64,000 nucleotides of DNA from Eledone cirrhosa. Lineage: Eukaryota > Mollusca > Cephalopoda > Octopoda > Eledonidae. The notes below the pieces were generated by a model, which saw only the letters and a program-made list of their open reading frames with translations, was not told where the DNA came from and did not search any database. The position numbers were made by a program, and so were the translations under genes. Numbering within the stretch: position 1 is the first letter of the stretch; each line of letters opens with the position of its first letter. Shown here in pieces: positions 2,001-51,824 of the stretch. The stretch is from assembly GCA_964016885.1 (NCBI GenBank), contig OZ024743.1, positions 16,203,472 through 16,267,471 on the forward strand, read 5' to 3'.

Positions 2001-2188
2001 TGGATTGGCAGTATCGGTAGAGGGTCGGACGCCATGCTTTGACGCATAGAGTTACGGCCCTTGCCATTCTGAGTTCAAATCCCGCCGAGGTTAACTTTGC
2101 CTTTCATCCTTACGGGGTCGCTAAAATAAAGTACCATAATGCACTGGGTAATTGCTGGCCTTGTGCCAAAAGTATAAACAATTATTTT
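2001..2188 (+). mobile_element. tRNA-derived SINE, full length
   Basis: One of the best preserved copies here. It starts TGGATTGGCAGTATCGGTAG (A-box region), has a B-box GAGTTCAAATCCCGCC, a body with CTTTCATCCTTACGGGGTCG and AAAGTACC, and ends GCTGGCCTTGTGCCAAAAGT then AATTATT. The head has the spacing expected of an internal RNA polymerase III promoter. It belongs with the tRNA-derived SINEs known from octopuses (OR/OK-type); the exact subfamily is not determined. Confidence 0.92.
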
Positions 2189-26235: not shown

Positions 26236-26702
26236 ATTATTATTATTATTGTTCTTTGAGTCTCAGTCATTGATGTTATTTAACTGCAAAGTTTGTTGAA
26301 ATGAATATCAAGCCGCTACCTGCAGCCTCAGATATTCAGCACGTATCGGACAGTTCTTGCTGTTCCCAGCAAGCATGCCTTTTGAAGTGTTCCAAAAAGC
26401 AGGGCTGGACTAATCTTCTTTAAACTTCCTTGGAAACTCTTTGAGACAGTACCTAGCGCGCCTATGACAATCGGGACGACCTTGATTTCATGGCAGTTCC
26501 AAATCCTTTTTAACTCCCACTTTAAAGCCTGGTATCGGTTAATTTTCTCCCGCTCCTTTTCTTGCACTTTCGTGTCAAATGGGCAGGCTACATCTACAAT
26601 CAGGCACAATCTTTTTTTCTTGTCCAAAACCACCAGGTCAGGCCTATTGTGTTCCAGTTTCTTGTCTGTCTGTATCATAAAATCCCATAGAACCTTCACC
26701 TG
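26236..26702 (-). pseudogene. REL-type LINE family C, copy 3: endonuclease C-terminus
   Basis: The minus strand (26699-26328) encodes HNRPDLVVLDKKKRLCLIVD, then VACPFDTKVQEKEREKINRY, PIVIGALGTVSKS, LQKACLLGTARTVRYVLNI and a stop. The RPD...(I)VD...K..RY pattern is the PD-(D/E)xK restriction-like endonuclease found at the C-terminus of R2/R4-group non-LTR elements. The 3' UTR carries ATGACTGAGACTCAAAGAAC and ends in (AAT)n at 26236-26250. The element is 5'-truncated at 26702, where it directly meets a SINE fragment. No RT domain. Confidence 0.85.
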
Positions 26703-26816
26703 ATCGTAACGGGGTCGATAATTTAAAGTACCAGTAATGCACTGGCTAATTGCTGGCCTTGTGCCAAACGTAGAAACAATTATTATTATTATTATTATTA
26801 TTATTGTTATTATTAC
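26703..26816 (+). mobile_element. 5'-truncated SINE with (ATT)n tail
   Basis: ACGGGGTCGATAATTTAAAG, CAGTAATGCACTGG, GCTGGCCTTGTGCCAAACGT, then (ATT)n at 26779-26816. The left edge is the truncation point of LINE C copy 3. The tail is continuous with the 3' end of LINE D copy 1. Confidence 0.85.
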
Positions 26817-27945
26817 CTTTGCATTTATCTTGCTTTACGTTCATACGAGTTATCACCAAGTCACCACCAGTGACCTCAAGAGACAACAAGGTCTGCCATG
26901 TTCAAGAAAGAACACACACACACACACATGCATCTTTAGGTGTTTTGACTTGTGATGTACATATATTGACAGAACCTTCCTTAGTATATGGGCAGTTCCC
27001 ATTAGTACTATCTTTTGTATTTTTCCTATACGCGGGTTTCCTGGGAATTTGCGATAAGTAATCATTAGACCTCTTAGGTATCATTCCTAGAGCGCCTACA
27101 ACCAGTGGTATGGTTTTAGTTCTCAATTTCAACATTTTTCCAATTTCTATCTCCAGGTCCTTATACTTGCTCAATTTTTCAAAAGTTTTTATAGATACAT
27201 TCTTGTCTATTGAAACGGACATATCAATTAGCAGGCACACCCTCTTTTTAAAGTCCTTCAGTATTATATCAGGTCTATTTGCATCTATTTTTCGGTCTGT
27301 TTGGATGCTAAAGTTCCACAAGATTGAGATGTGATTTTTTCAATCTTGGGAGGTAGTTGATGCTCCCACCAATTCTTTTGATGGGGCAGGTCAAAATGCT
27401 TACACATTATCCAATATATATATTGTGCAGCTCTGTCGTGCCTGTTTCGGTAATAGGTTGGAGCTATAGGACTGCACATTGAAATTATATGATCAATGGT
27501 CTCTGGTTGTTTTTTACATACACGGCATAATGGGTTGCACCCATTTTTTATTATGTTGGCTTGGTAATTTTTTATTGGCAGACACTGATCTTGCACTGAT
27601 ATAATTAGTCCTTCAGTCTCCGATTTCAGTCCAGAGGATGCCAACCACTGATGGGTTAAAGTTTTGTCAACATCAGGATTGTTAGCTCTTTCTGGGTATT
27701 TTCCATACAGCGGCTTTTCTTGCCATTTCTTATACAGTTTCTGTAGCAGTTCTTTGCTTGCAGTTACTTTTACCTACTTTGCTTTTTCTGTGTTTTTCAT
27801 TTCAGCAGTACATGGAACTTCTGAAATATGTAGTTCATTACTGTATCTTGGTGCATCTTTTGTAATGGAGTATGATCTTTTGATGCTTTCGTGTTTCAAA
27901 ATGAGTTTGATCACCCAATCATGTGATTCCCTTAGATATGTAGAT
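26817..27945 (-). pseudogene. REL-type LINE family D, copy 1: CCHC and endonuclease region
   Basis: The minus strand from 27945 encodes ESHDWVIKLILKHESIKRS and ISEVPCTAEMKNTEKAK, then a stop, EKPLYGKYPERANNPDVDK and WLASSGLKSETEGLIISVQD. A CCHC finger follows (CRVCKKQPETIDHIISMC, i.e. C-x2-C-x7-H-x4-C). After a frameshift near 27300 comes the REL endonuclease (ANRPDIILKDFKKRVCLLID, KTFEKLSKYKDLEIEI), then PLVVGALGMIPK. The RT domain lies upstream and is missing (5' truncation at an (ATT)n tract). The 3' UTR (26817-26900) contains AGACCTTGTTGTCTCTTGAG. The element is bounded by (ATT)n on both sides. Inactive. Confidence 0.85.
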
Positions 27946-28028
27946 ATTATTATTATTATTATTGTTCTTTGAGTCTCAGTCATTGTTGTTATGTTACTGG
28001 AAAGTTTGTTGAAATGAATATCAAGCCA

Positions 28029-28730
28029 CTACCTGCAGCCTAAGATATTCAGGACATATCGGAGGGTTCTTGCTGTTCCAAGCAAGCATGCCTTTTGAAG
28101 TGTTCCAAAAAGCGGGGCGGGACCAATTTTCTTTAACCATCCTTGGAAACTCTTTGAGATAGTACCTAGTGCGCCTATGACAATCGGGACCACTTTGACT
28201 TCATGGCAGTTCCAAATCCTTTTTACCTCCCACTTTAAGTCCTGGTATCGGTTAATTTTCTCCCTCTCCCTCTCTTGCACACTCGCATCGAATGGGCAGG
28301 CTACATCCACTATCAGGCACGATCTTTTTCCCTTGTCCAAAACCACTAGGTCAGGTCTGTTGTGTTCCAGTTTCTTGTCCGTCTGTTTGATAAAATCCCA
28401 CAGCACCTCCACCTGATCGTTCTCTATCACCGACTCTGGCTTATGCTCATACCACTTCTCAGAATGTGGTAAATTATTTACTTTGCATATGTGCCAATGG
28501 ATCACCTTGCCCATCACATCATGTCTCCAGCCCTTATAGTGAGTCTGGGCTAGGTATTTACACTCGGATACAATGTGAGCCATAGTCTCCTCTCTCTCTG
28601 CACAGATCCTACACAGTGGGCTAGCCTCATCATTGTAAATATGGTGTTTCAGCCACGTTGTTTTGAGGGCCTGCTCTTGCGCAGCCATTAGCATTTCTTC
28701 TGTAGCCTTTTTAAGGTCTCCTCTTTTCAA
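28029..28730 (-). pseudogene. LINE C copy 1: CCHC finger and restriction-like endonuclease
   Basis: An open frame of 233 codons. KRGDLKKATEEMLMAAQEQA, then CRICAEREETMAHIVSEC (C-x2-C-x7-H-x4-C), then YKGWRHDVMGKVIHWHICK, HNRPDLVVLDKGKRSCLIVD (PD...D), VACPFDASVQEREREKINRY (K..RY), PIVIGALGTISKSFQGWLKK and CLLGTARTLRYVLNI. This is the C-terminal half of an R2/R4-group ORF: zinc finger for target binding followed by the nuclease that nicks target DNA for target-primed reverse transcription. About 185 bp of stop-containing sequence separates it from the RT frame. The nuclease motifs look intact, in contrast to the RT. Confidence 0.85.
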
Positions 28731-28917
28731 CCAGTTCCATGTCTGTGGATCTCTAAATTCAGTTTTCTCAAAGAAGGTACAATGAAGGGATTTTTCATGA
28801 AGGTTGCTCTTTCTCCTGGTTGTTATTTCTTACTTGGACATCCCCTGGTCTATTGTCCTCTCCTTCAGTACAATTTAGAGCATTGGCTCCCTACACGTAT
28901 TTGTGTAGGTTGTTGTT

Positions 28918-30279
28918 CTACATCTGAACACAGTCCTCTATGCTGATAAGACCTCTTCCACCTTCAGATCTCCTTAAGTAGAGTCTATCGACATCACTCC
29001 TCTTGTGGAACATGTTGTAGATAGTCAATAGCTTCCTAGTTTTCCTATACATTTCTTTTTGTTCAGCAACATTCCATCTCAGAATTCCAGCACTGTACCT
29101 AATAATAGACACAGCTCGGGAATTTACTGCACTTATGGCATTCCTACTGTTCAGATGTGACTTTAATACGCTCCTTATTCTCCGAATGTATTCAGATCTT
29201 ATCAATTCCTTCATCTTTTTGTTCTTGATGTCATCAGCCTCCAAAACACCTAAATATTTGTATCCTTCTTCAGTATCAATTTCCTTTATCATCTCACCTG
29301 TTGGTACCTGGATTCCGTTGCTTCTGCTCAATTTACCCCTCTTCATCACAAGGACTCCACACTTACTAATACCAAATTGCATACATATATCATTGCTCAA
29401 AATACGTACAGTATCAACAAACACACCCAACTCCTTCTCACTCTTCCCGAAGAGCTTAAGATAGTCCATGAAGAGGAGGTGATTGTTGGTAAGCTCTCCT
29501 TTTCCCAACTTGTATCCTGCTCTCACTTTTCGCAGTATAATGGTCAGTGGGATCAAGGCAAGGACAAACAACAGACGGGCCAAACTATCTCCCTGGAAGA
29601 TAACTCTCTTGATCTTCACGCCTCCCAAAGATTCTCCGACCGATATTAACTCTGTTTTCCAGGACTTCATACTTTTGCTCAAAAACTGTCTGATGTTATC
29701 TGCCACCTTGAAGATCTCTAGGCTTTTGGTTATCCAAGAATGAGGTACCATGTCGAATGCCTTTTTGTAGTATATCCATCCCATGGCAAGACCAGTGTGT
29801 CTCCTCCTACAATTCCTCATTAGTATCTTATCAATAAGTAACTGGTCCGTTGTACCACGGGACTTCTTTCGGCATCCTTTCTGTTTGTCCGGTAACAAGT
29901 TGTTTATGTGGTGGTGCTGGTAGATTTCCTCAGACACAATGCTTGTTAACAGTTTCCACATTACGGACAGACATGTGATAGGTCTATAGTTGGTAACATC
30001 ATTACCCTTGGTTCGGTCTTTCATTACCAGAACTGTGGTACCTTTTGTCAACCACTCTGGTACCTCACCTGACATTAAGCAGTCATTGAAGATGGTTGTC
30101 AGTTTCAGGTGGAGGGATGTTATATTTTTAATCCAATACACCTGCACACCATCTGGGCCTGGTGATTTCCAGTTGGTTAGTTTTTTGGCCTGCCCCATAA
30201 GAGTTTCAACTGTGATACTCAAATCAGTTTGTTGGTGTGCTTGTTCACTAATCTCCTTTTGTACTGTCTCAATCCACAC
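28918..30279 (-). pseudogene. LINE C copy 1: reverse transcriptase domain with two catalytic Asp changed to Tyr
   Basis: 453 uninterrupted codons. The RT fingers and palm are clear: NWKSPGPDGVQVYWIKN (motif 0), NYRPITCLSVMWKLL (motifs 1-2), motif A region AMGWIYYKKAFDMVPHSW, motif B IFQGDSLARLLF, motif C HLLFMDYLKLFGKSE, then thumb residues EGYKYLGVLEADDIKNKK. In this family motif A is normally WIDYKKA and motif C FMDDLKL. Here the catalytic Asp of motif A is Tyr (TAC) and the second Asp of motif C is Tyr (TAT), each one G-to-T change. Motif B has AR in place of the usual SP. A polymerase lacking two of its three metal ligands should be inactive. Frameshifts lie upstream (~30285) and stops downstream. 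Confidence 0.9.
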
Positions 30280-30284
30280 TGCCT

Positions 30285-30900
30285 GAATGTTATGTTTAAA
30301 ATCCTCTCCAGAATGTCTTAGTTTGTTCCGCCTTAGGGATCATGTCGTTGCCTCTTTCTTTCCCTTCAAACTGTCCAAACAGCATCTTCTGGTTGTTGTC
30401 AAACTTGCGGTTCTGTCTATACTGACCGACTCTGCTCTCGTATCGACTAATCTTTGCGCTCTTTGCTACAATGCGTTGCTTCAGTTCCTCTATGATACTA
30501 TTTAGCTTTTTCCTCCTAGTTTTGTACTTTATTTCCAAACTATTTTTAGTGTATATGTTTTGTAGTGTCCCATTCACTAGGGACTCAAGCTTTCCAATGT
30601 CATTTCTCATTTCACGGATTTGACCATTCAGTCGTTTATTCCACCAAGGTCTGATCTTTCTTGTTTGTTGTTTACTCTCTCTTTTATGTAAAGTAATTTC
30701 CTCACCGCATTTGCTGTTGCTTTGAGGATATTATGGCACTGGTGAAGCTTCCTCACCTCAAGGTATGGGATGACTTTGTTTACATTAGCTGGTGTTTCCT
30801 TTAACATTTTCCTGTTTACAAATCTTAGGTTCATAGGTTTCCCACTATCATTGTTCATTTCATCTACCACTAAGTTTAGGATATCAACGAAATCTTGTCC
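30285..30900 (-). pseudogene. LINE C copy 1: N-terminal helical/basic region
   Basis: Two frames read GQDFVDILNLVVDEMNND (30900 downward), LEVRKLHQCHNILKATANAV, then MRNDIGKLESLVNGTLQNIY, IIEELKQRIVAKSAKISRYE, QYRQNRKFDNNQKMLFGQFE, KTFWRGF. A one-base frameshift precedes the RT frame, which resumes at HNIQAVWIE. The region is Lys/Arg/Gln-rich and probably coiled-coil. It corresponds to the segment in family D just before its RT. The extreme N-terminus and 5' UTR are missing. Confidence 0.75.
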
Positions 30901-31548
30901 TATTATTATTATTGTTATTACTCTTTGAGTCTCAGTCATTGATGTTAGTTAACTGGAAAGTTTGTTGAAATGAATATCAAGCCACTACCTGCAACCTCAG
31001 ATATTCAGGACGTATAGGAGGGTTCTTGCTGTTCCCAGCAAGCATGCCTTTTGAAGCGTTCCAAAAAGCGTGAAGGGGTCAATTTTCTTTAACCATCCCT
31101 GGAAACTTTTTGAGATAGCCCCTAGTGCGCCTATGACAATCGGGATCACTTTGACTTCATGGCAGTTCCAAATCCTTTTTACCTCCCACTTTAAGTCCTG
31201 GTATCGGTTAATGTTCTCCCTCTCCTTCTCTTGCACTCTCGTGTCGAATGGGCAGGCCACATCCACAATCAGGCACGATCTTTTTTCTTTGTCCAAAACG
31301 ACCAGGTCAGGTCTATTGTGTTCCAGTTTCTTGTCTGTCTGTATCCTAAAATCCCACAGCACCTTCACCTGATCGTTTTCTATCACCGCCTCTGGCTTAT
31401 GCTCATACCACTTCTCAGAATGTTGTGAATTGTTTACTTTGCATAGGTGCCAGTGGATCACCCTGCCCATCACATCATGTCTCCAGCCCTTATAGTTAGT
31501 CTGGGCTAGGTGTTTACACTCGGATACAATGTGCCACAAGTCTCCTCT
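30901..31548 (-). pseudogene. REL-type LINE family C, copy 2: finger remnant and endonuclease
   Basis: The minus strand (31539-30997) reads HIVSECKHLAQTNYKGWRHD (second half of the CCHC finger), VIHWHLCKVNNSQHSEKWYE, HNRPDLVVLDKEKRSCLIVD, INRYQDLKWEVKRIWNC, PIVIGALGAISKSFQGWLKK and ACLLGTARTLLYVLNI, then a stop and a 3' UTR with ATGACTGAGACTCAAAGAGT. It is 5'-truncated inside the finger. (ATT)n lies on both sides (30901-30915 and 31549-31580). One open frame covers the whole remaining part, so this copy is younger or less damaged than copy 1. Confidence 0.87.
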
Positions 31549-31580
31549 TATTAATATTATTATTATTATTATTATTATTG
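31549..31580. repeat. (ATT)n junction tract
   Basis: Joins the truncated 5' side of LINE C copy 2 to the start of the Tx1-like LINE. Confidence 0.95.
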
Positions 31581-31789
31581 GCGACCTACTTAGTAAATCG
31601 TATCATCGTGAGCTCCGCTAAGGTCTGTTATTTCCGTTTGTTAAAAATTGTCATTTATGGAAAATTTTTATTGTTAACTATATATATGCGCACATACATT
31701 GTTTTCCGAAAAGGACACCCAAAAAGATTGGGGCCTGGTGCCCAAAATTTAAACTTTTATGATTATCAAAAAATTTTTTTGAAAAAAAA

Positions 31790-33779
31790 ATGGCTAATTC
31801 AACTCTGCACCAAGCAGCTGAAAGCCTTCTTCACAAATTAACACCTCACACCGACACCACCATTATAAATGTTACTACGTTTTCCAACACTAAAAAAAAT
31901 ATAAGCAGTAGCAATATTTTAAATTCGTCTGAGGCAGACATTCATTTCCCGCCATTACAAATGACTGCAGGTGTTAAAGCCTCCACCACCACCACCACCG
32001 CGACAACCACCACCCCACCACCACCGCGACAACAGAAACAAAAGGAAAAAATAAATCAACTCGTGATGTCGAAATAATTTCAACCAAAATGGACTCTTCC
32101 ACTTCCACACCGAACACCACTGACGTCACCACCACCACAACTGAAACTAAAATTAATAATAACAAAAATAACGATAACAACAACAGCAACAATGACATTA
32201 AAAAAACCACCCTGAGTTTTGCCGGAGTAGCAAAACAGTGCGAAGCATTTACGGTAACTCAGGAGGAATTAGAAAATGCCAAACAAATGGTAAAGAAAGA
32301 TGGGTACAGGGTCAGCCTCACCCCCCACCTAATAAAATGGAGCATCGGCGCCTATGCACCGTGTCGTATCGAACAATAAATGTAAAATCGCGCCGAGTGG
32401 AACGGGTATCCTAGTCCCAAATCCAAAAAGCTTTGGGACATTGGTGGGCAAGAAAAACCCACATCAGACGTGGGCAGAAGTATGGAACCGTGGACGTGTT
32501 CTTTGAAACACCAGAGGAGGCTAGAGAACACTCCATGGCCCCATTAGGAAGTGACGACTTCACAGTCGTCCCAAGCTATTGTGGCCAGAGACTCGTAAAG
32601 ATCAGGGTGACCCACGTTCCACCGGCCATCGAAATTCCCTGGCTAATAGCGGCCGTCCTCGCCGGCATCGAAGCCAACACAAAAATAATAGCAATAGCAA
32701 AAGAAAAGCAGGAGAACTGGTCCGGATCTGGGATGGAGCTCCTGATCCAAGCGGACCAAAAAAGCATTGAGGAGATCCCAGAGGTAATAGACCTCACTGA
32801 CGGCAGCCACCTCACCGTAATTGTCGAGGACAGAAGGCCTAGGTGTGTCGTTTGTGGTGAAGGAACCCACCTAAGGGCTTTCTGCCCTCAGGCTAAAAGG
32901 TTGAGGCCACCTCTCCTACCCACCCAGTGACTCAACCATCAACACCACCAGTAGCAGAGATGGCAGCAACAACTGTAGCAGCAACAACAGAAGCAACTAT
33001 AACAACAACAACCCCAGCAACAGTAGCAAAACCAACACCACCACCAACAGCAAAACCAACACCACCACCACCCAACGCTTCAGAACTAGCACCAGCGCCT
33101 ACATCATCCACCACGCCACAACCAAAACTAACGCCTGTGGAGGATTTTCCACTCCCCGGCCTATCACAACTGGAGACAGATTGTGACGACGAGGATTGGG
33201 AAACGGTATCAGAAAAAAAAAAAAAACCAAACATAAAAAAATTCTCTTCCTGACCCCTCCAAAAACAAAATACAGAGGGAAACAAATAAATTAACAAACA
33301 AAAAAGTTAGGACAGATATGCCACCATCCATAACAGCATCACCAACCCCATCAACCCAAACACCTACACCATCACCATCATTAACCCCAACACCACCATC
33401 ACCTACACCTCAAAAGTCACCAAAATGCGAAACAGAAACAAACCCACAACAAACGCAAACAAAACAAAACAACCAAAACGATACACACTACACAGCATTA
33501 AATTTGAATAACAAGCAATTATTACACTACATCCAACACAACAGCAGCATCACAGAAAAAGACTACACAACAACCCAAAAATTCACACCACCTCCACACA
33601 TACAAATCACTCGCATCACACAGAAAACGTACATGACACTAAAACAAAAATTCCCCAAAGACATCGGAGACTTCCGACAAGCACTCTCCAGGAGGATTCA
33701 TAAGGACATCCTTCCTGAGGAGGCCACAAGCAGTGAAAAGGATGGAAAAACCGTCCTTCCCCTACGAGAAGTAAGGTAA
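31790..33779 (+). pseudogene. Tx1-like LINE copy 1: ORF1 (RNA-binding, CCHC knuckle)
   Basis: The ATG at 31790 gives MANSTLHQAAESLLHKL. A Thr/Pro- and Asn-rich low-complexity section follows, then a frame change to SFAGVAKQCEAFTVTQEELE and YRVSLTPHLIKWSIGAYAP. A further frameshift near 32420 leads into KYGTVDVFFETPEEAREHSM, RLVKIRVTHVPPAIEIPWL and the knuckle CVVCGEGTHLRAFC (C-x2-C-x4-H-x4-C, about 32842-32885), then a stop at 32928. Further Thr/Pro-rich frames (32927-33253, 33318-33779) may be the C-terminal tail of ORF1 or a spacer. ORF1 proteins of this type bind element RNA. At least two frameshifts, so inactive. Confidence 0.78.
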
Positions 33780-33813
33780 GTGGTCTTTCCCATCTTTTCC
33801 ACTCCTTTTCAAC

Positions 33814-36800
33814 ATGACCTCACTCAGAATAGGCAGCATAAATGCGCGTGGCTTGGGGTCGTCATGGAAGCAGGGCCACCTGCTCAATGACCTCAGGTCA
33901 CTAAACATAGATGTAGTGGCCATCAGCGAGACCAGAATCTCCGAAGCACGGGCCCTCGCACCGATCTTCGTCGGCTACGACGTGTACGCATCTCCCAGCC
34001 GTCTGGGATCGGGAGGAGGAGTTGCTGTTCTTTTTCGGAGAGGTTTAGATCTCGCCATACGGGCCATCTTCCTGGACCCAGAAGGTAAGTTGGTGGTGCT
34101 GGACGTGACCAGCGGAGACGGGCAAGCTTTCAGGTTAGTGGGCATCTATGCCCCGACAGGAGCAGGGCGGCCTGATTTCTTCCGGCGTTTGGAGACCTTT
34201 CTTGGAACGTCCCGCTCTTTAGTGTTAGTGGGCGACTGGAACGGGATCTTAGATGCACGCTGGGATTGTGTGGGATTAGTGGATAGAGAAGGAGGGTGCA
34301 AGAGTCTCACCAACCTGCTTAGGCGTTTTGAACTATCTGACAGGTACCGAATTGATTTCCCGAATGTACCAATGTGGACTTGGACAAATCGAATAGGGTA
34401 ATCCAGATCATATCTAGATAGAGTATTTTGTAGGGAAATAGATAGGTCTAGCATAGGCTGTCCACAATTCAAGATAGTCAGCTACACGGACCACAAATTC
34501 GTGATCTGTGTGCTTGACTTAGATAGGCTTCATAGACGAGGACCCGGCTACTGGAAGCTAAACGCGTCCTGACCAGCGCGCAAGGCCTACAGAGACCGGA
34601 TTAGCGAACTAGTTAAGCGGGCGTTGACGGGGCACATCGTCAACAAGAAGTGGTGGTTTGCTCTGAAAAGAGCAATTAGAATAGAGTCCATTAGGTTTAG
34701 TAAGGCTTTAGCAATAGAGAAAAATAGAGCAGAGGGAGAATTAGTTAGAAAATTAGACGAGGCGCTTAGCAAAGGCATCGAGACCGACGTACTTGCGGCG
34801 AAATTGGCCCTTGACCAATTCTTCAATGCAAAGCACGAAGGCTGCGTTGTCAGAGCTAGGTAGCGTGCTCTCAGACACGAGGGGACGAAATCCGTTCAAT
34901 GGGCCCGAGTGGCGGAGGCACGTCATGGCAACAAATCCACGATCCGGTCTTTGGTGGACCACGACGGGCGCATGCTACTCGATCCCGGGCAAATGTGTGA
35001 AGCTTTTCAGCGACACTTCGCTCAGCTGTTCGGGGGAAGTGGCGGGCCGGATCGAGAGATGGACTTTAGTGTCTACCTCGACGGACTGCCCCGGCTTTCG
35101 GCCACTGAGGCGGAGTGTTGCGAAAAGCCGATAACAACCGCTGCAGTACGGGAGGCAATGACTGGCTGCACAAGGGGTAAATCGCCTGGTTTGGATGGTC
35201 TGCCCTATGAACTTTACGTACAAATGCCAGACTTGTTCGGAGGCCTCTTGGCGGTCGTCTACTGCAACTGGCAACAGAACGGGAGAATTCCCAGCTCTGT
35301 AAGCCGAGCAGCGGTGGCACTGCTGAGAAAGGATCCGAACAAGGGGGATAACATAGATAATTTTAGGCCCATAACTCTGCTAAACACAGAGTTCAAGATT
35401 TTGGCCAAGGTGCTAGCAAAGAGGTTGGCGCTTGTCGTTGGTCGTCTGGTGGGAGAGGCACAGACATGCGCCATTCCGACAGATCCATCCACGTCAACCT
35501 CCACCTCATGCGATACATCGTAGAGAGGGTAGCTACGGAACCTGGCACGGGTGGGTCTTTGATCAATTTAGATCAGTCGAAAGCCTTCGATAAGGTCGAC
35601 CATCGTTACCTAGCGGCAGTCCTGAGGGCGGCTGGCTTTGGGCCCGTCTTCAGAGGCTGGATCGCTGCCATGCACAGCGACATCTGCTCTGTAGTGAGAG
35701 TGAACGGTCACCTTTCGGAACCGTTCAACATCATGCGCTCCGTCTGCCAAGGATGTCCCCTCTCGTTCCTATTGTACGTATTGACTCTCGAGCTATTACT
35801 GCACAAACTGGAGACGTTGAGAGGGGGGGGGGTCCCGCATGAACTAGGATGCGGAGGATCCGTGTCAGCATATGCGGACGATGTCACCGTAGTGGTGTCG
35901 AACGCCAAACACATCGAGGCGATCGGCACTGCACTAAGAGAATACGAAGCGGTGACACGAGCAATGATCAACCAGGAAAAGTCAGTGGGCCTGCAGCTCG
36001 GCACCTGGAGAGGCAGGTCCATGCCGTCCAACAGCGTCGTCGGGCGCTGGACGGACGGACCGGTTAAATTGCTAGGGGTCTGGTTCGGTCCAGACCTCCA
36101 GACGGAACAAACTGGACGAGGTGACGAGCAGGGTGGCTTCTCTCACCCAGAAATGGGCCGAGAGGAAGCTATCCATGAAAGGTCGAGCGGAGGTGGCTAA
36201 CGCGTAGATCGCGTCCGTCAACTAACACCGCCTGACCGTCGTACCTTGTCCTAAGCCCCGCCTGACTGCGCTGGAGCGTTTGCTCTTTCGCCTCTTGTGG
36301 AAGGGACGCGCTCCGATGGTCAGGCGGTCCATCTGCTGTCAACACCCGCTACGTGGAGGGCTGGGCATGCCGTGGCTGATGATGCGCAGACACGCTCTCA
36401 GGCTACGACATCTCCACCTCTTCCTCGACGGTGATCAGGTGTGGTCGCTGTTTGCTAGACACGTTTTTCCCCAGCTCGTCTCCTTGACGGAGCTGCAATC
36501 CTGGGTCAAGCGAAGACCGAGAGGGAGCGCTTGGAGACTCGAATGTCTTCAGGCGCTCACAGCCCTCGACCAATCGGGCAATGTGATCGGTGGAAACTCT
36601 ACCTTGGCGTTCTATAGGGGATTAGTGGAGGGGAAGAGCCACGACGTACTTGGAGAAACTCTAGGCGTCGACGAAAATCAACTAGCCAATCTCTTCGGAA
36701 GGACTTTCGGGCCGGGGCCTATGGACAACTTCCAGACATCTCTGGCCTGGCATTGCTACCGAGGAGCCTTGCCAGTTTGGGATAAACTCTCCAGGCATGG

Positions 36801-37236
36801 AGGTGCCGTCAGCCGGGCATGTCCGAGATGCGCACTGGGCGACGAAACCGTCCTTCACGCACTCGTCCAGTGTCCGAGCATTGCTGACTTGTGGGTTTAT
36901 GTCGAACACCTGCTGTCACGTGTAGGACGGATCCAGCTATCAGCTGAGTCCACCGTGAGGATTGCCCCGCTCTCTTACTTTAGCCGGGAAGGGTAGGCAC
37001 TTTTTATCTGTCTGGTGGCCATGGCGAAAGAGATAGTATGGTGGACACGTTTGAAAGGGCTGAAGACGAGCACTTACCTCTTCGGTGATGCCCTGATTAA
37101 CTTTTTCAAATTTCATTTGAAAAGGAAAATCAGGGTAGAGAGGGAAGTGCTCTCTTCCAAGCATTTTGTTGAAAGATGGGTGAGAGAAGCAAGAATGGCC
37201 CGAATGAATGGGCCTTCTCTGAGTATGTGTCTGTAA
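33814..37236 (+). pseudogene. Tx1-like LINE copy 1: ORF2 (endonuclease, reverse transcriptase, CCHC)
   Basis: ATG at 33814. Apurinic endonuclease: SINARGL, AISETRIS (catalytic Glu), GIYAPTGAGRPDFF, VLVGDWNGIL (Asp/Asn), and after a TAA at 34399, SYTDHKFVI (His). Stops also at 34570 and 34861. RT: GKSPGLDGLPYELY, NFRPITLLNTEFKILAKVLA; a one-base frameshift near 35477; motif A SLINLDQSKAFDKVDHRYL; motif B RSVCQGCPLSFLLYVLTLE; motif C SAYADDVTVVV, all catalytic residues present. A second frameshift near 36100 is followed by RRSICCQHPLRGGLGMPWLM and the C-terminal finger CPRCALGDETVLHALVQC (C-x2-C-x7-H-x4-C). Stop at 36994, then AKEIVWWTRLKGLK. ORF2 nicks target DNA and reverse-transcribes the element RNA. 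Dead here, but the ancestor was complete. Confidence 0.87.
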
Positions 37237-37483
37237 TTTAAAGGTGGAAAACTGGGAGAGGGCACTTGCCCTGGTGGTCAGGGTCACTGTGGTCTTTTAA
37301 TGGGCTTTCTCCACAAATGTCCCTCGGAAGTCTCCCCCCCTATTGGGGAATTTTTCTTTGTTATTTTATTACATCCTCTGTTTTTTTTACACGCAGAAAT
37401 GCCCATTTGTACCGTCCTGTATTGTCCTGTACTGTCCTTAATGTCTACTTCATGTAAACCCTTGTGGTTAATAAAGAAAACAT
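37237..37483 (+). other. Tx1-like LINE copy 1: 3' UTR
   Basis: Contains TATTGGGGAATTTTTCTTTG, repeated GTCCTGT, then CCCTTGTGGTTAATAAAGAA before (ATT)n. The 3' end of copy 2 (43100-43298) has the same layout: ATAGGGGAATTTATTTTG, GTCCCTGTC, GGCCTTGTGGCCAATAAACG, (ATT)n. Confidence 0.8.
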
Positions 37484-37506
37484 TATTATTATTATTATTA
37501 TTATTA
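37484..37506. repeat. (ATT)n shared by two convergent LINE tails
   Basis: The 3' tail of the plus-strand Tx1-like LINE and the 3' tail of the minus-strand LINE D copy 2 meet in this single tract. Confidence 0.9.
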
Positions 37507-37650
37507 CAGTTGCATTTATCTTGCTTTATGTTCATACGAGTTATCACCAAGTCACAACCAGTGACCTCAAGAGACAACAAGGTCCGTCATGTTCAAGAAA
37601 GAACATACATACTCACACATGCATCTTTAGTGTTTAGACTTGTGATGTAC

Positions 37651-37952
37651 TTATATTGACAGAATCTTCCTTAGTATATGGGCAGTTCCCATTAGTACTA
37701 TCTTTTGTATTTCTCCTATACGCGGGTTTCCTGGGATTTGCGATAAGTAATCATTAGACCCCTTAGGTATTATTCCCAGAGCGCCTACAACCACTGGTAT
37801 TGTTTTAGTTCTCAATTTCCAGATTTTTCCAATTTCTATCTCCAGGTCTTTATACTTGCTCGATTTTTCAAATGTTTTTATAGATACATTCTTGTCTATT
37901 GGAACAGACAGATCAATTAGCAGGCATACTCTAATTTTTGGGATTGTTTGTC
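37651..37952 (-). pseudogene. LINE D copy 2: restriction-like endonuclease remainder
   Basis: IRVCLLIDLSVPIDKNVSIK, KTFEKSSKYKDLEIEIGKIW, LRTKTIPVVVGALGIIPKGS, IPGNPRIGEIQKIVLMGTAH, ILRKILSI and stop. It starts after the RPD part of the nuclease motif, so the first metal-binding Asp is deleted. The C-terminus matches LINE D copy 1, which loses frame after PRKPAYRKN. Confidence 0.85.
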
Positions 37953-38953
37953 TCATCATTCTTCGGAAGCAGGAATGTAATGCCGTTAACTAGCCATGAT
38001 GGTATCTTTTCTGGCTCCTTAACTATTTCATTGTAAAGTTGGGCTAACAGCTCACGAGACTCTGTGAAGGCATTTATCCAAAAGTTTTGTATTTTGTCTT
38101 TTCCTGGGGATTTCCATTTGCTGGTTTTTATTAGAGCCAAGCCCAACTGTTCAACTGTTATATTTTCCCATATTTGTTCATCAAGGTGAGCTGTATCTTT
38201 CATTTGTCTGTCTATCCATGGGGCATGTATGTTATGAACTTTTTCTTCGGCCCAGATCTTTTCCCAGAATTCTTGCACTTCCTCCTTGGGTGGTATTGAT
38301 TTAGCAGTTATTGTTGACTTACCAATTTTTCTGTAGAAGTTTCTTTGGTTGTTTTTGAGCATATTATTGTCCTTATAGAATCTAGATCGTTTTTCAAAGC
38401 GCCTTACACGAGCAGCATTGGCCGACACTTTTTGTTTGATTATTTCTATCAGCATATCTATGTCACTTGTTGATTTTATACTGTACTTTTTTTTCAATTT
38501 TCTAAGTTTAGTTTGTTTAACATGTTCACCTACTTTATAGTTTGTTAAAATTTCTATGTCAGATCGGAGTAGGTTTATTTGGCGATTGATGTTCTCTTGC
38601 CAAGTAGATTTCTTGTGGGAATTCCTTTGCTTTTTCATCTTCACTCCACATAAGTGAGTGGTGACTTTAGCCGATGCATAATAGAGATGATTTAAATCAG
38701 TAATGTTTAGTTTGTTTGTGATGATAATGTTTTTGAGAATTATGTTAGTCTTGTGTATTATCTTTTGGTTCTGTTTGGAGTTCTGGATCTTAGGGAGGGT
38801 GTCTCGTTGCCCCATGTCAGATTCTTTCATTTTCATCCATTCGATCATAATTTCATCCTTCAAGTTGGCAAGTTCATTCTCATTCATTTCTTTATCATTT
38901 ACGATCTCATTATTTTCATTTGGAGTTTCATCTTGAGCATGCACTCCCTCCAC
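37945..38953 (-). pseudogene. LINE D copy 2: linker and start of reverse transcriptase
   Basis: From 38953: DEIMIEWMKMKESDMGQRD, LHGVKM-type linker, then LIEIIKQKVSANAARVRRFE, NNQRNFYRKIGKSTITAKS, VQEFWEKIWAEEKVHNIHAP, WKSPGKDKIQNFWINAF (RT motif 0) and ITFLLPKNDETNNPKN, where the RT breaks off just before the expected YRPIT. The segment AARVRRFE...RNFYRKIG parallels family C (KISRYE...KMLFGQFE), showing C and D are sister families. It overlaps the N-terminal frame by 55 bp in another frame, so there is one frameshift at about 38900-38950. Confidence 0.85.
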
Positions 38954-39510
38954 TTTTCGATCCTTTCTTTAATTTGTTCTGTTGCCAGTAATTTCGCCCC
39001 AACCCTGGGATTCGAAGTGTTACAATTTACCTCGTTTTCACTGACACATGTTTCATTTTCCCTTCGCTGACTTTGTGCTAATAGCTTGATCTGATCAATT
39101 TCTATATCAGTTAGTAACTTTTTTCTTACAATATTTCTTCGTATATTGGCTAGTTTGTTACTGTCAATATAGCCTCTGTTTTCGGGATGTTTCTTTTTAC
39201 AGTTGATATATGTCTGTTCTGTATTCGATGTATTTGATGGGTAGTACATGGCAGTGTAGAAAGCCTCAAGGACTTCTTTATTATCTTCCCTTGACCATTC
39301 TTCTCTCTTTTTCTTTGGATTTCTTGGTGGTGAGCATGGAGGGCCAACAGTAGGAGTATTCCAGTTATGGGAGGCCTCCAGCTCCGAAGTGATGGGAAGG
39401 TTTGAACCATTAGCTGATTTTTCGACCCCAGTCTGGTTCCTCTCTGAAGGACGCGGCCCTTTTTTACCCGGGTGACGGCCGATCCGGTATGAGATTTTAT
39501 CATTAGACAT
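38899..39510 (-). pseudogene. LINE D copy 2: N-terminal Myb-like DNA-binding region
   Basis: The ATG at 39510 gives MSNDKISYRIGRHPGKKGPR. A Pro/Ser-rich stretch follows (VGPPCSPPRNPKKKREEW), then WSREDNKEVLEAFYTAMYY, NCKKKHPENRGYIDSNKLA, NIRRNIVRKKLLTDIEIDQI. The tryptophan-led helix, the KLANIRR...LLTDIEI pattern and the position N-terminal to RT match the Myb-like target-binding domain of R2-group elements. Such domains contact the insertion site. The frame is open for 203 codons, and a frameshift ends it near 38900. The start codon is preceded by the leader at 39511-39670. Confidence 0.8.
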
Positions 39511-39670
39511 TTACTTTATTTTGTCGCGTTTTATCCTTATCCGCCAAGGGGTAATCATTTCGTGTTACCACCTCTAGAACGAGTGTCAACCAAGACTAGA
39601 GGGGTCGTTCTCCCCTAGAGACACGGCTATTCCCCGCCGGCCGCCATCCCGGTATTTCTTGGTCACGGGG
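39511..39670 (-). promoter_or_regulatory. LINE D copy 2: GC-rich structured 5' leader
   Basis: On the minus strand the leader runs ACCCCGTGACCAAGAAATAC, GGGATGGCGGCCGGCGGGGA, then AGGGG-AGAACGA-CCCCT (a 5-bp hairpin with a 7-base loop) and a TCTAG...CTAGA pair enclosing TCTTGGTTGACACTCG. It is far more GC-rich than its surroundings. Members of the R2 group often start with a self-cleaving HDV-like ribozyme. That this leader is one is inference from position and base composition only. Confidence 0.4.
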
Positions 39671-39806: not shown

Positions 39807-40617
39807 CAATAATATAATATACTTTTTGCTGAAGTTGCCTGTTATTGTTGTTGGCTATATCGGTGGTGGTTCTGGGGCTATTTATATTGTTGGTGAGAAA
39901 GGGGTGAGCCAGCAGTGCCATAGTTGTTGATGTTGACGTTTGACCGGTGGCCAGGTCACTAAGTCAATCTATTTATATCTTTTGCTAGCTTCTCCCTTGT
40001 CTAGTGATACCGCCACCTTCCCCTTTCTCTCTCAAGTTAACAGGGGAATAGTGGTGGTAGCAATGAAGGAGTGGTGGCGGCGGTGATGGGATAGTGGTAG
40101 CAATGATGGATGGAGTGGTGGCGGTGAGTTTTGTGTTATGAGTGTGTGTCGCGTATGTTTAATATATATTGTGTTGACATATTCCCGTAAAATTGGGATT
40201 AAACATTTTGTTAAAACTTGAGACAATAATAATAGTAATTATTATTATGATGCTGGGATTGGTGGTGCTGGTGAAATTGCCGTTATCTGGCTGTTATATT
40301 TAGTGTGATGGGGTAGGTGGTGTATCAAGTTTCTGGTGTTGGTGAAATTGCTGTTATTTGGCTGTTCTATATAGTGTAGACAGAGAGTGTTTTCTTCCAA
40401 TTATATCCATTTTCTTTTTTGAATACAAAATATATAATACAAAATTGAATATTTGAGCGATATAACAATATAATATGGATCCGAAATTTTATGGGACTTG
40501 ACTCGGTGGTTTATGCAACATTTGTACTAAGAATTGTTATTTCACAATTGATTTAAATATGTTAAAAATCAAAAACTTACGGGAGCGATTTCATGACCTT
40601 CTACCACCTCGTGCGTC
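39807..40617. other. Unassigned; contains two small tandem duplications
   Basis: 40035-40125 repeats GGTAGCAATGA and GTGGTGGCGG at a period of about 44 bp. 40264-40378 contains two copies of GGTG-TGGTGAAATTGC...GGCTGTT about 71 bp apart. No gene supported. Confidence 0.55.
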
Positions 40618-40619
40618 TT

Positions 40620-40663
40620 CTTCCCTTCTTCTTCTTCTTCTTCTTCTTCTTCTTCTTCTTCTT

Positions 40664-40737
<74 letters not shown>

Positions 40738-40745
40738 TATTATTA
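40620..40745. repeat. (TTC)n followed by (TTA)n
   Basis: (TTC)n 40625-40693 then (TTA)n 40693-40745. It borders the truncated 5' end of Tx1-like LINE copy 2. Confidence 0.97.
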
Positions 40746-43298
40746 TATGGACGCACATGTATGAAGACGTACAAGTCTGTGGGGAAGCAACGCATCTGAA
40801 AGCCTTCTGCCCTCAACTAAAAAATGCAGGGGTTCGCAAACCTCCTTTGTTGCCAACGCCAGTGTCATCACGGAAAGCCGCACCACCACCAAAAGCAACA
40901 CCACCAACATCAAAAACAGCCGGTCAACCACCAACACCGAAACCAATCCAAGGCGAAAACTAGGAAAGCTCTCCCCTAACCGTTCCAATTATACATATAG
41001 AAAAAATAATAAACGCACACACAGACACAGATACACTCACAGCCACTGACCCTTTGTCTTCCATCAGAGAAGATGAAGGAGAACCCAAAAGTGCCAAAAA
41101 ACAGGGTCACCTCGACCTCAGATCTCTGGAAATGGATGTGATTGCTGTCAGTGAGACCATAATTTCTGACACGCGCACACTAGCCCCCATTTTCGACGAT
41201 TATCAGATCTTCGCATCTGTTAGCAGGCTGGGAATGGAAGGTGGGGTGGCAGTGCTGTTTAGGAAAGGACTGGATCACGAGGTAAGGTCGATCTTCCGCG
41301 ACCCGGACGGTACGTTGGTGGACTTGGATGTGAGCAGTAGTGAAGGTGGTGCTTTTAGACTGCTGGCCGTTTACGCCCCTACTGGGGCCGGACGACCGGT
41401 CTTCTCTAGGCGCCTGGAGACTTTTCTGTGTACGTCTCGCCCTTTACTGTTAGCGGGGGACTGGAACGGCATGTTAGACGCATTCTGGGATTGTGTGGGA
41501 GTAGCTGATAGGGACGTGGGGGGGGGGGGGCAAAAGCCTCAAGCATCTAATCAGCTAGTTCCAACTGTCTGACAGGTATCGACTAGATTTCCACAATGCG
41601 CCAGTGTGGACATGGACCAACCACATTGTGTCATCTAGATCGTATATAGACAGGATCTTCATTAGGATATAGATAGAAATAGTGTAGACTCTCCACTTTC
41701 TTAAACGGTCGCCTATTCAGATCACAAATTTGTGATCTTTACGTATTGACTCTCGAGCTTTTACTGCGGAAGCTGGAGCTGCTGGACACCTCAGAAATCG
41801 AGGTGGTCGGCAACTTATTAGAGGCATATTAACGGTTGACGGGTGCAAAACTTAACCCGGAAAAGTCGGTGGGCTTGCCGTCCAACAGCATCGTTGGACG
41901 GACGGACCCGTAAAGTGGTTGGGGCCAGACCTCCAGGTGGAAAAGAATTGGGACGATGTAACGAGCAGGGTAGCCAGTCTCATCCATAAATGGGCTGCGA
42001 GGAAGCTATCGCTGAAAGGTCGCGCGGAGGTGGCGAATGCGTACATTGCGTCCGTCATCTACTACCTCCTGACCGTCGTGCCTTGCCCCCGTCCGCGCCT
42101 CAAGTTGGAACGGCTTTCCTTCAAATTCTTGTGGAAAGGACAAGTTCCGTTGGTGAGGCGGTCCATTTGCTGCCAGCACTCTCTACGCGGAGGGCTAGGC
42201 ATGCCGTGGCTAATGATTCGCTGAGGCTGCGAAATCTCCAGATATTCTGCCTAAACGGTGAAAAGGTCTGGTCGCCGTTTATCAGAGGGGCCTTTCCGCA
42301 GGTCATTTCTTTGATTGAGCTGCAGTCCTGGGTCAAGAAGAGACCGAGACTGGGTGACTGACACCTGGAATGTTGCCAGGCCCTCCCTGCCCTCTACCAA
42401 GCGGGCAATGCGATCAGTGAGTCTTCTACTCTCGAGTTCTATAGAGGATTAGTGATGGGCAAGTGCGATGACGCCCACGGAGAAGCTTTGGGCCTTGACG
42501 AAGTCGAACTGACCAGTCTGTACCAGAGGACTTTCGAGCCGGGGATGATGGACAATTTCCAGAAATCCCTCGCTTGGCAGTGCTACCGGGGAGCACTGCC
42601 AGTTCGGAATAAAATCTACAGGCACGGAAGTGCTGTCAGACGGACCTGCCCAAGATGCGCACAGAGCTACGAAACGGTTCTGCACGCACTTGTCCAATGT
42701 CCGTACATTACTGACTTGTGGAGATATGTCGAAAAGCTACGGTCACGTGAGGAACGGATCCGGCTATCGACCGAGCCCATAGTGAAGATCCACCCGCCAC
42801 CTTCCCTTAGTCAGGAAGAGCAGGACATTTTCCTCTGTCTGGTGGACGTTGCGAAAGAGGTTATATGGTGGACCAGATTGAAAGGACTGAAGACAGACAT
42901 TTTTCTCTCCGGCCAATCCGTCATCAATTTCTTCAAGTTTCACCAGTACATTTGCTAAAAGGTGGATCAATGTGGTGAGAATGGCCCGTGTGAATGGGGC
43001 TACTCTGACCATGCGCCTATAGGCTAGCTAACTTGAGGAGAGGGGTGCTCTCCCTGGGTGCCCTAGAAGCGCAGGGTGGTTCATGATTGGTGGGGTACCT
43101 GAGTCACCCCTGGGTCGTCCACCCCCTATAGGGGAATTTATTTTGTTATATATTTATGCATAGTTTATTTTATATTTTTTATATCTTTATTGTTAAATTA
43201 GTCTTGTCATTGTGCACTTTTACTCGACCTTATTGTAAACCCCCACGGTCCCTGTCTTTGTATTGTACCCTACATGTCGGCCTTGTGGCCAATAAACG
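40746..43298 (+). pseudogene. Tx1-like LINE copy 2, 5'-truncated, with most of the RT deleted
   Basis: Begins inside ORF1 at the knuckle (VCGEATHLKAFCPQ), followed by the Pro/Thr-rich tail. ORF2 endonuclease: AVSETIIS, VYAPTGAGRPVFS, LLAGDWNGML; the N-terminal INARG motif is lost. After a G-run (41519-41530) come YRLDFHNAPVWTWTN and SDHKFVIF. The sequence then jumps at about 41740 to YVLTLEL (just after motif B) and again at about 41795 past the YADD box to EKSVGL. The remainder is collinear with copy 1: NWDDVTSRVASLIHKWAARK, RRSICCQHSLRGGLGMPWLM, CPRCAQSYETVLHALVQC (finger), AKEVIWWTRLKGLK. The 3' end GGCCTTGTGGCCAATAAACG then (ATT)n. No polymerase remains. Confidence 0.85.
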
Positions 43299-43350
43299 AA
43301 ATTATTATTATTATTATTATTATTATCATTATTTTCATTATTATTATTTT
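43299..43350. repeat. (ATT)n tail of Tx1-like LINE copy 2
   Basis: (ATT)n with later interruptions, continuous with the LINE 3' end. Confidence 0.95.
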
Positions 43351-45065: not shown

Positions 45066-45247
45066 AATAATTGTTTCTACTTTTTGACACAAGGCCAGCA
45101 ATCCCAGTGAATTACGGGTACTTTATTTTATCGACCCTGTAAGGATGAAAGGCAAAGTTAACCTAGGCAGGATTTGAAATCAGATCATATAGGGCCGTAA
45201 CTCTATGCTGCAAAGCATGGTGTCTGACCCTCTACTGCCAATCAACC
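45066..45247 (-). mobile_element. tRNA-derived SINE, full length
   Basis: In reverse it shows the complete series: head with TGGCAGTAGAGGGTCAGACA, GATTTCAAATCCTGCC (B-box), AACTTTGCCTTTCATCCTTA, AATAAAGTACCCGTAATTCA and GCTGGCCTTGTGTC, then AATTATT. Well conserved. Confidence 0.92.
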
Positions 45248-46327: not shown

Positions 46328-46540
46328 CAATATTGGTTTCTAATTTATGCACAAGGCCACCAATCTCTTTTGGGAAGGGTAGAGTTGATTGAATCAACCT
46401 CACTACTTGACTGATACTATATTTTATTGACCATAGAAGGATGAAAGGCAAAGTTGACCTCGATAGGATTGAAATCAGAATGGAAAGAGCCAGAAAAATA
46501 AGGCAATGACACTGTATCTGATGCTTAACCAATTCTACCA
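46328..46540 (-). mobile_element. tRNA-derived SINE, diverged full-length copy
   Basis: In reverse: tRNA-like head remnant, ATTTCAATCCTATCGAGGTC, AACTTTGCCTTTCATCCTTC, GTTGATTCAATCAACTC spacer, GGTGGCCTTGTGCATAAATT. The spacer is the longer variant. Confidence 0.8.
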
Positions 46541-51080: not shown

Positions 51081-51824
51081 TGAATATTCCGGTTGAATCA
51101 TCAACGGAGGCCGGGGAGGGTGACAGCCAAAGCAGTTCAATATTCATGAGTTAATAGGAAACTTGGAAACTTCGCCTTTTGGATGCAGTTTTGGTAATAT
51201 CATATATGCATAGACACCGATTGTAAGGTATATAATATGCAATTTCAGAACGTATTGTACTTGTGAACATTTCGTTACGCCCATGTATGTTCTGAATCAA
51301 ATCCTACCTTTCACCTTTCCAGGCCTATCTAAACTATAATAAAGTAAGGAGTGCAGGACTGCGTACAATTTATTTTTTTAATCCAGTTAGTAAAATAAGT
51401 TTGATTATTTTGAATAAATAATGAATGAATATTACACAATTTATATACTAAATTTCGTAGCTGTTGATTAAATGTATGCTATTGATTATTTAAAAGTTCA
51501 CTTTTTTAACATTTTCAAATGTCAACACTTCCGGTTAGCGATCGTTTAAATATACATTCATATATTTCCGTCACTACCTTTCTCCTAATGCAGTTTATAT
51601 ATAATATCGTCTTTTTTTAATGTATCATGGATTACTAACTACATAAGACAGTGTAACGCAGTCTCGTTCAATTTCTGTGTATATTGTTAATTACGATTTT
51701 ATTTGATGCATCATTTCTACATGCATATATACTTGTATATAATATCAATATCGGGTGGTCTTTCTGCTACTTTAAATAACTACTGATGTCGAGCTACTCG
51801 TCTCTTTTTTTACTCAAAAGATGG
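51081..51824. other. Unassigned stretch
   Basis: Starts GC-richer (GGAGGCCGGGGAGGGTGACA near 51104) then becomes AT-rich. Nothing recognised. Confidence 0.4.

Follow-up and report, generated by a model that had tools for sequence, protein, structure and literature searches.

A likely LINE/SINE pair in the octopus Eledone cirrhosa, indicated by a common 3' hairpin and a common type of integration target

Which element copies the short interspersed elements (SINEs) of octopuses? The question is raised by a stretch of 64,000 nucleotides (nt) of contig OZ024743.1 of Eledone cirrhosa (G000:C4:16203472-16267471; below, the window), where the tails of a SINE and of a long interspersed element (LINE) resemble each other. 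A preliminary description of the window proposed that the two form a pair and that the SINE borrowed the tail of the LINE. SINEs constitute 11.6% of the Octopus vulgaris genome and are a leading octopus repeat class (PMC13282606; this and the other cited papers are drawn on in part). The 2026 repeat annotation of that species names recently active LINEs of the L1-Tx1, CR1, RTE and Dong-R4 groups, and its main text contains neither the word 'partner' nor the word 'tail' (PMC13282606). In the open-licence literature searched neither a pair nor an autonomous partner is named for the octopus SINE; earlier work in subscription journals may exist.

The LINE and the SINE are likely a pair. Structure and target speak for this more strongly than the length of the common sequence, which comprises about 22-26 nt. 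Genome-wide data strengthen the case beyond what the two LINE families of the window, which by themselves resemble the SINE weakly, would allow. Both elements have a hairpin with the loop CTTGT and compensated stem changes, at the same distance from an ATT repeat, a GAAA end, and the target C^ATTATT. Since the hairpin, its distance from the end and the kind of target are the same, the LINE is probably the copying engine of the SINE. We regard it as probable that this LINE group mobilizes the SINE by stringent recognition of the hairpin. Thus the pair proposed in the preliminary description stands as the best reading, on the basis of hairpin, register and target instead of a long exact match.

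LINE copy 1, of family F1, is full length (5.9 kb, 31580..37481, plus strand), as delimited by its 5' end, Pfam domains and 3' tail. It starts with GGCGACCTAC at 31580, immediately 3' of (ATT)8, and contains pieces of Exo_endo_phos, RVT_1 and zf-RVT in broken frames (Pfam). Its 3' 433 nt have 40 genome matches at 98-100% identity, its own copy included, and additionally one fragment at 73% (40 of 1713 candidates scored). The tail CCCTTGTGGTTAATAAAGAAAAC at 37459-37481 is followed by (ATT)n at 37482..37506, where an R4/R2-like LINE of the opposite strand adjoins. The tail hairpin AACC-CTTGT-GGTT (37457..37469, plus strand) is present letter for letter in 24 of 27 F1 tails. LINE copy 2, of family F2 (traced over 40502..43300, plus strand), also has broken frames. 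It is related to copy 1 (68.9% identity over 626 columns, 73.4% over 1099), and its tail GGCCTTGTGGCCAATAAACG at 43279-43298 is followed by AA(ATT)n, the repeat occupying 43301..43348. Its hairpin GGCC-TTGT-GGCC (43279..43290, plus strand) has lost one C compared to the family consensus GGCC-CTTGT-GGCT. The general tail architecture ATGT-N5-CTTGTG-N3-AATAAA is found in 13,836 places of the genome (2.98 Gb, to which all genome-wide counts refer), the reversed control in 6.

The SINE motif GGCCTTGTGNCNAA is found in 204,842 genome places (control 16). Two SINE types can be separated, the younger S1 and S2, which has an extra GTCGATTTAATCGACTTTCCCCTCCCC-like stretch. In the window, type 1 is represented by a full-length copy with a target duplication starting ATTATTTTTTAATC (2001..2182, plus strand), by a 5'-truncated copy with (ATT)n and then an R4/R2-like LINE of the opposite strand on its 3' side (26703..26778, plus strand) and by a copy at 45066..45235 (minus strand), whereas a copy with the GTCGATTTAATCGACTTTCCCCTCCCC-like stretch at 46329..46491 (minus strand) belongs to type 2. 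The first copy reads GGCCTTGTGCCAAAAGTATAAACAATTATTTTTTAATC at 2157, the second reads GGCCTTGTGCCAAACGTAGAAACAATTATTATT at 26755. The SINE end given in the preliminary description is a fair composite of the two, but the literal text of neither. An ATT repeat had been assigned to the copy at 2157; its flank is a target-site duplication with no ATT repeat, as AATTATTTTTTAATC also precedes the SINE.

The exact string shared by the two tails is of limited use. With at most one mismatch, GGCCTTGTG occurs 22 times in the window against 8.5 expected. Its eight exact places comprise six SINE copies (identified by BLAST), LINE copy 2 and an unclassified place at 51823. However, the consensus of 29 family-2 tails is GGCCCTTGTGGCTAATAAATGAAATC, and GGCCTTGTG in LINE copy 2 results from a one-base deletion. 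The identity is therefore partly an accident of this copy, and the common 9-mer was rejected as evidence for the families: the strings claimed for the two tails are present, but that of LINE copy 2 is atypical.

The consensus tails of F1, F2, S1 and S2 all contain the loop CTTGT, at 21, 22, 21 and 21 nt from the ATT repeat, respectively. The same loop at the same distance was seen in 5 to 21 of 20,000 shuffles, in a test framed post hoc. Anchoring the tails in register at the ATT repeat, with the best of three shifts taken, gives p of 0.022 for F1-S1, 0.0030 for F2-S1, 0.0022 for F2-S2 and 0.0023 for F1-S2. Free local alignment, with dinucleotide shuffles, yields p of 0.141 for F1-S1, 0.075 for F2-S1, 0.058 for F2-S2 and 0.011 for F1-S2, and the likeness by this measure is suggestive only. 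Beyond F1 and F2, consensus 3' ends related to the SINE in register beyond shuffles are those of families F3 and F4 and of the single copies L092 and L098. F3 agrees at 17 and 18 of 26 positions (p 0.0002 each, 5000 shuffles). F4-S2 is the best tail match, with 18 of 26 positions in register (2 of 20,000 shuffles; 190 of 20,000 in free alignment), and F4-S1 has 17 of 26 (15 of 20,000; 158 of 20,000 in free alignment). The end GAAACCATTATT is also common to S2 and F4. Thus the best match to the SINE, attributed earlier to the LINEs of the window, is clearer in F4 and SINE type 2. The F4 tail CTTGTGNNNAATAAAGAAACCATTATT occupies 578 genome places (control 0). This family was first found by a pattern forcing GAAACC, and its SINE match could thus have been an artefact; this is not the case, since 84 of 100 listed copies carry GAAACC when that base is left free. 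Among longer tails, F2-S2, F4-S1, L099-S2 and L092-S1 are above chance (103, 51, 13 and 18 of 4000 shuffles, respectively). Three control tails, of family F5 and of two R4-like LINEs, show no such relation to the SINE (p 0.41-0.95 in register, 0.89-1.0 in free alignment). Among the families checked, the R4-like LINEs and F5, the statement that other LINEs of the window end differently is borne out.

The tails have a common hairpin, in which the helices AACC/GGTT, GGCC/GGCT and UGGC/GCCA surround the loop CUUGU. It was evaluated on 24 distinct tails, namely 20 fetched LINE tails (two of which duplicate others in the stretch), the F1 and F2 consensus and four SINE variants; the 20 were chosen for unlike stem letters among 100 listed of the 13,836 places. 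In this set 86.5% of cells are paired, three of the four pairs show changes on both sides, and covariation is 0.516 compared to 0.259 in shuffled alignments (0 of 500), slid versions not exceeding 0.237. In another set of 16 chosen tails 92.2% of cells are paired and covariation is 0.613 compared to 0.231 in shuffled ones, and RNAalifold found the same hairpin unaided. That set consists of 10 of the 20 tails (L090, L092, L095-L098, L102, L105, L106, L108) and consensus rows, leaving out the other 10 and window copy 2, and in its row L090 the end is that of L094, with CATTATT instead of CATCATT at a place not in the helix. As only 10 of the 20 tails were used there, all 20 were recounted: 17 have three or four of the four pairs, two are present in L091, L101 and L103, and the helix is interrupted in L093 and L099. 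By family, 106 of 108 cells are paired in F1, 112 of 116 in F2 and 155 of 172 in S1. Thus there is a common 3' stem-loop backed by compensatory change.

One possibility is that an AATAAA-type LINE end and a tRNA-SINE end gained the hairpin and the A-rich stretch independently, or resemble each other by chance. Such convergence is improbable: the stretch is short, the folding weak, the free alignment of F1 and F2 with S1 close to chance and some of the tests post hoc, but the same 5-nt loop in the same register appears in only 5-21 of 20,000 shuffles, the F4-S2 agreement in 2 of 20,000, the stems covary and the three control tails are negative. Moreover, convergence under recognition by one protein would still mean a LINE/SINE pair.

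The LINE and the SINE use the same type of integration target. Among 28 SINE ends, taken from the first listed places of the SINE motif with some skipped, 16 have a duplication of at least 10 nt, and 15 of these 16 duplications start with ATTA within 2 nt; some of the 16 are situated in ATT arrays, and that of L004 may match a neighbouring SINE. Typical insertion sites are C^ATTATT. LINE 5' starts follow an ATT run in all seven cases seen, the run ending exactly ATTATT in six, and six of the seven come from LINE-tail or ATT-array loci. Clear duplications were seen in few LINE insertions outside arrays (L042, L061). As evidence on the target, the spacing of LINE tails is less biased than the 5' starts. 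Among the first 100 listed tails on G000:C1, neighbours within 7 kb are on the same strand in 27 cases and on the opposite strand in one, with about 2 expected. At 2-7 kb there are 22 same-strand neighbours and no opposite ones, and 16 fall at 5.0-6.3 kb, approximately one element length. Head-to-tail arrays with this spacing would be the expected result if later copies inserted into the tail repeats of earlier ones. Similarly, among 60 LINE-tail loci, which are the best hits to the window copies and include two from the window itself, a same-strand SINE start lies within 120 nt 3' of the tail in 16 cases, and an opposite one in none (1.4 expected). LINE copies also begin inside SINE tails (L024, L050). 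The first 16 distinct forward (ATT)7 arrays of contig C1 (12 fetched, four placed by coordinates; calls made by eye) are preceded on the 5' side by the LINE group in five cases (one decayed), by the SINE in two, by F5 in three and by other elements in six, and the 12 fetched arrays are followed on the 3' side by a same-strand SINE in three cases and by a LINE start in one.

This target is not unique to the pair. The (ATT)n repeat was rejected as evidence for pairing, as it is also a target and is common to F5 and, on the other strand, to the R4-like LINEs. A rival reading is that the SINE is mobilized by a different LINE group with an (ATT)n end and ATT targets, e.g. F5 or an RTE element. F5, which ends TTTC(ATT)n, is 5' of 3 of the 16 sampled arrays; CR1, RTE and Dong-R4 are on the list of LINEs recently active in O. 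vulgaris (PMC13282606), and bivalve V-SINEs have been described as having a 3' end in common with CR1 (PMC5135761). However, in register the F5 tail agrees with the SINE at only 9 and 8 of 26 positions (p 0.52 and 0.78). Outside the known stems the motif has 260 hits, of which 100 were listed; all 100 are LINE-like or SINE-like by letters, with no third family among them, the tails of RTE and CR1 being outside this survey. Mobilization by such a group therefore appears unlikely. A narrower search, for GGCCTTGTGCC lacking the upstream SINE letters, gave 32 hits only; as an argument for 'no other family' it is of limited value, since a module of the LINE 5' untranslated region (UTR) had escaped it by sharing the upstream ATTG letters.

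This module is a second hairpin, found in LINE copy 1 at 31726..31754 (plus strand) by its letters and a genome 34-mer count. It is situated about 146 nt into the 5' UTR, reads GGGC-CTTGT-GCCCAAAATTTAAAC and is followed by AAAATTTAAAC. The stem-loop is GGGC-CTTGT-GCCC in L010 and L017, and the loop is CTGGT in the window copy. The exact 34-mer around the module occurs 497 times in the genome (control 0). When the rows of L010, L017 and the window are added to the alignment of tails, the hairpin holds, with covariation 0.612 compared to 0.249 in shuffled versions (0 of 500). Its matches to the SINE score 34 for L010-S2 (1 of 10,000 shuffles), 32 for L017-S1 (3 of 10,000) and 30 for window-S2 (10 of 10,000), whereas the module of L013 scores only 23 and 21 (231 and 411 of 10,000). 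In L010 the module is followed by TTTTATTATTATC; an ATT run is clear only there and less so in L017 and the window copy. Two origins are conceivable: the LINE may have its recognition hairpin at each end, or it may have captured the tail of a retroposon upstream of ORF1, an event that the nesting of LINEs in (ATT)n would facilitate.

Hence the SINE tail may be tied to the 5' UTR hairpin and not to the LINE 3' end, by capture of a tail upstream of ORF1 or by acquisition by the SINE there. The three matches, the pairing of the hairpin with these rows, the frequency of the 34-mer and the head-to-tail insertion into (ATT)n, which favours capture, speak for such a link; the low scores of L013 and the single clear ATT run speak against it. 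We consider it somewhat doubtful, though less so than convergence or another LINE group. Within the LINE, the SINE tail may stem from the 3' end or from the 5' UTR, and in either case the partner would be the same LINE. Borrowing of the LINE tail by the SINE is accordingly a candidate explanation, next to convergence and the 5' UTR link. A bolder combination, that an animal L1-group LINE with stringent recognition and a hairpin at both RNA ends, the 5' one being a captured tail, powers the dominant octopus SINE expansion, is only tentative.

The LINE likely belongs to the L1/Tx1 clade, a candidate placement made from sequence comparisons. The four best PDB matches of its endonuclease, with E from 6e-5 to 1e-4, bear the chain names LR1, LTX and LINE-1 endonuclease, of which we take LR1 and LTX to be variants of the L1 endonuclease. 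Together with the Exo_endo_phos domain, these matches indicate an APE-type, L1-like endonuclease, as in the Tx1 clade. Target-specific LINEs of that clade also have an APE-type endonuclease. Insertion into a specific target, a feature of part of the clade, is observed here as head-to-tail nesting and as LINE starts after ATT runs. The endonuclease, zf-RVT and microsatellite targeting make the Tx1 label plausible. The reverse transcriptase piece scores 47 bits with the PDB entry 8gh6, presumably R2Bm, and 36 bits with LINE-1 ORF2. The sole named cephalopod relative is from the cuttlefish Acanthosepion pharaonis (PF00078+PF13966). A search for mollusc relatives in genome contigs gave only one bacterial reverse transcriptase with 27% identity (L089), and one in viral contigs gave none.

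The preliminary description suggested comparing the ages of the two elements, and on the copies sampled these coincide at most partly. The LINE copies used are best hits to those of the window, and their median divergence is 0.5% in F1 (26 best hits) and 1.8% in F2 (23 best hits). The sampled SINE copies have 5.7% in S1, with a minimum of 1.3% (14 copies), and 11% in S2 (5 copies). The S1 value is near the SINE and LINE expansion of O. vulgaris at Jukes-Cantor (JC) 0.065 (PMC13282606).

A number of observations weigh against mobilization of the SINE by this LINE group. Firstly, the free local alignments of F1 and F2 with S1 are non-significant, so that consensus tails, expected earlier to exceed shuffled controls, do so in register and for F3 and F4, but not in this comparison. 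With longer tails F1-S1 and F2-S1 are at the chance level (1872 and 1160 of 4000 shuffles), like the control F5-S1 (1858 of 4000), and several of the pair tests were framed with the data already in view. Secondly, the hairpins are weak, single tails folding no better than shuffles, and the 20 fetched tails, picked for unlike stems, all come from a pattern fixing CTTGTG and AATAAA. Most tails of F3 and F4 lack the outer pair, F4 having 61 of 80 cells paired, and 43 of 64 cells are paired in S2 instances; thus F1, F2 and S1 have a helix of 4 bp, whereas that of F3, F4 and S2 mostly has 3 bp. Thirdly, F5 also ends C(ATT)n, and therefore target and repeat alone do not single out the LINE group. 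Local duplication could add to the head-to-tail count, and the background SINEs located behind LINE tails also favour the same strand, 10 versus 3. Finally, the match of the SINE tail to the LINE 5' UTR is no poorer than that to the LINE 3' ends, and the mean ages differ, the LINE copies being younger than the SINE copies.

Some other features were observed. R4/R2-like LINEs lie on the minus strand of the window at 26791-30730 and 37482-39515, the two places being 92.8% identical over 459 bp; across (ATT)n their tails face those of the SINE and of LINE copy 1. Their reverse transcriptase is nearest to R2 proteins in PDB and their tail reads TAA; we assume that they have a Dong-like TAA target. 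One stretch occurs three times (26236-26707, 27949-28593, 30901-31548) with about 90% identity, each copy starting beside an (ATT)n run, and its minus-strand frame seems to us to resemble the C-terminus of an R2/R4-type LINE. Family F5 is found in the window at 1445-1337 (minus strand), and also in L110, L114, L115 and L033; its C-terminal reading frame is, in our view, reminiscent of a CR1/L2-type LINE. On G000:C1, at about 217.40-217.61 Mb, pairs of opposite-strand LINE tails 2.9 kb apart recur three times at distances of about 100 kb, which looks like segmental duplication.

If the LINE group mobilizes the SINE, the following mechanism may be proposed. The ORF2 protein of this L1-like, probably Tx1-group LINE would bind the CUUGU hairpin 21-22 nt before the terminal AUU repeat and nick opposite C^ATTATT. 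The AATAAT end would then base-pair with the AUU at the RNA terminus and prime reverse transcription, and any RNA presenting the hairpin and the end would be copied, be it from LINE or SINE. The SINE RNA would be accepted as a template in trans, since its hairpin, the register of that hairpin and its end are those of the LINE. The pairing of AATAAT with AUU would produce a fixed orientation within (ATT)n, and this model also predicts R4/R2-like LINEs with a TAA tail on the other strand of the same arrays.

LINE/SINE pairs of the L1 clade have been described in maize and sorghum, with a compensated 3' hairpin, and in Chlamydomonas, and no animal pair of this clade is present in the LINE/SINE table rows of the same paper (PMC3747384). 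LINE1-1_ZM with ZmSINE2 and ZmSINE3, and L1-1_CR with SINEX-3_CR, likewise combine an L1-group LINE with a tRNA SINE (PMC3747384). The maize/sorghum pair also has a short 3' hairpin with a conserved loop and a variable, compensated stem, for which 'stringent' recognition was proposed (PMC3747384). On the other hand, the common stretch reported for plant and algal pairs is roughly 50-100 nt, with about 50-80 nt in the two systems just named, compared to about 22-26 nt here, and the plant loop is UCU, whereas here the loop is CUUGU, the 3' repeat (ATT)n and the host an animal (PMC3747384).

The Bov-B LINE and the Sauria SINE were likewise linked by the pattern of target duplications together with the 3' end, but Bov-B belongs to the RTE clade and has another target signature (PMC13295347). 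Target-specific LINEs of the Tx1 clade, some of them on microsatellites, also insert into multicopy repeats, although the target here is (ATT)n / C^ATTATT (PMC4640811); in the literature searched no Tx1-clade LINE with a SINE partner sharing its tail was found. In the eel pair UnaL2/UnaSINE, whose 3' end is common to SINEs, and in ZfL2, a 3' stem-loop is likewise the recognition element (PMC3747384, PMC5135761). Recognition in these systems has been proven by experiment, whereas for the octopus pair it is inferred only. UnaL2 and ZfL2 belong to the L2 clade. For plants it was proposed that L1s initially recognized a specific tail and that this requirement was relaxed later (PMC3747384). With such a partner, whose recognition element (about 22 nt) and target are both defined, the question can be tested directly. 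If the octopus pair is real, an L1-group element of an animal would join the 'stringent' ones, which agrees with the proposal for plants (PMC3747384).

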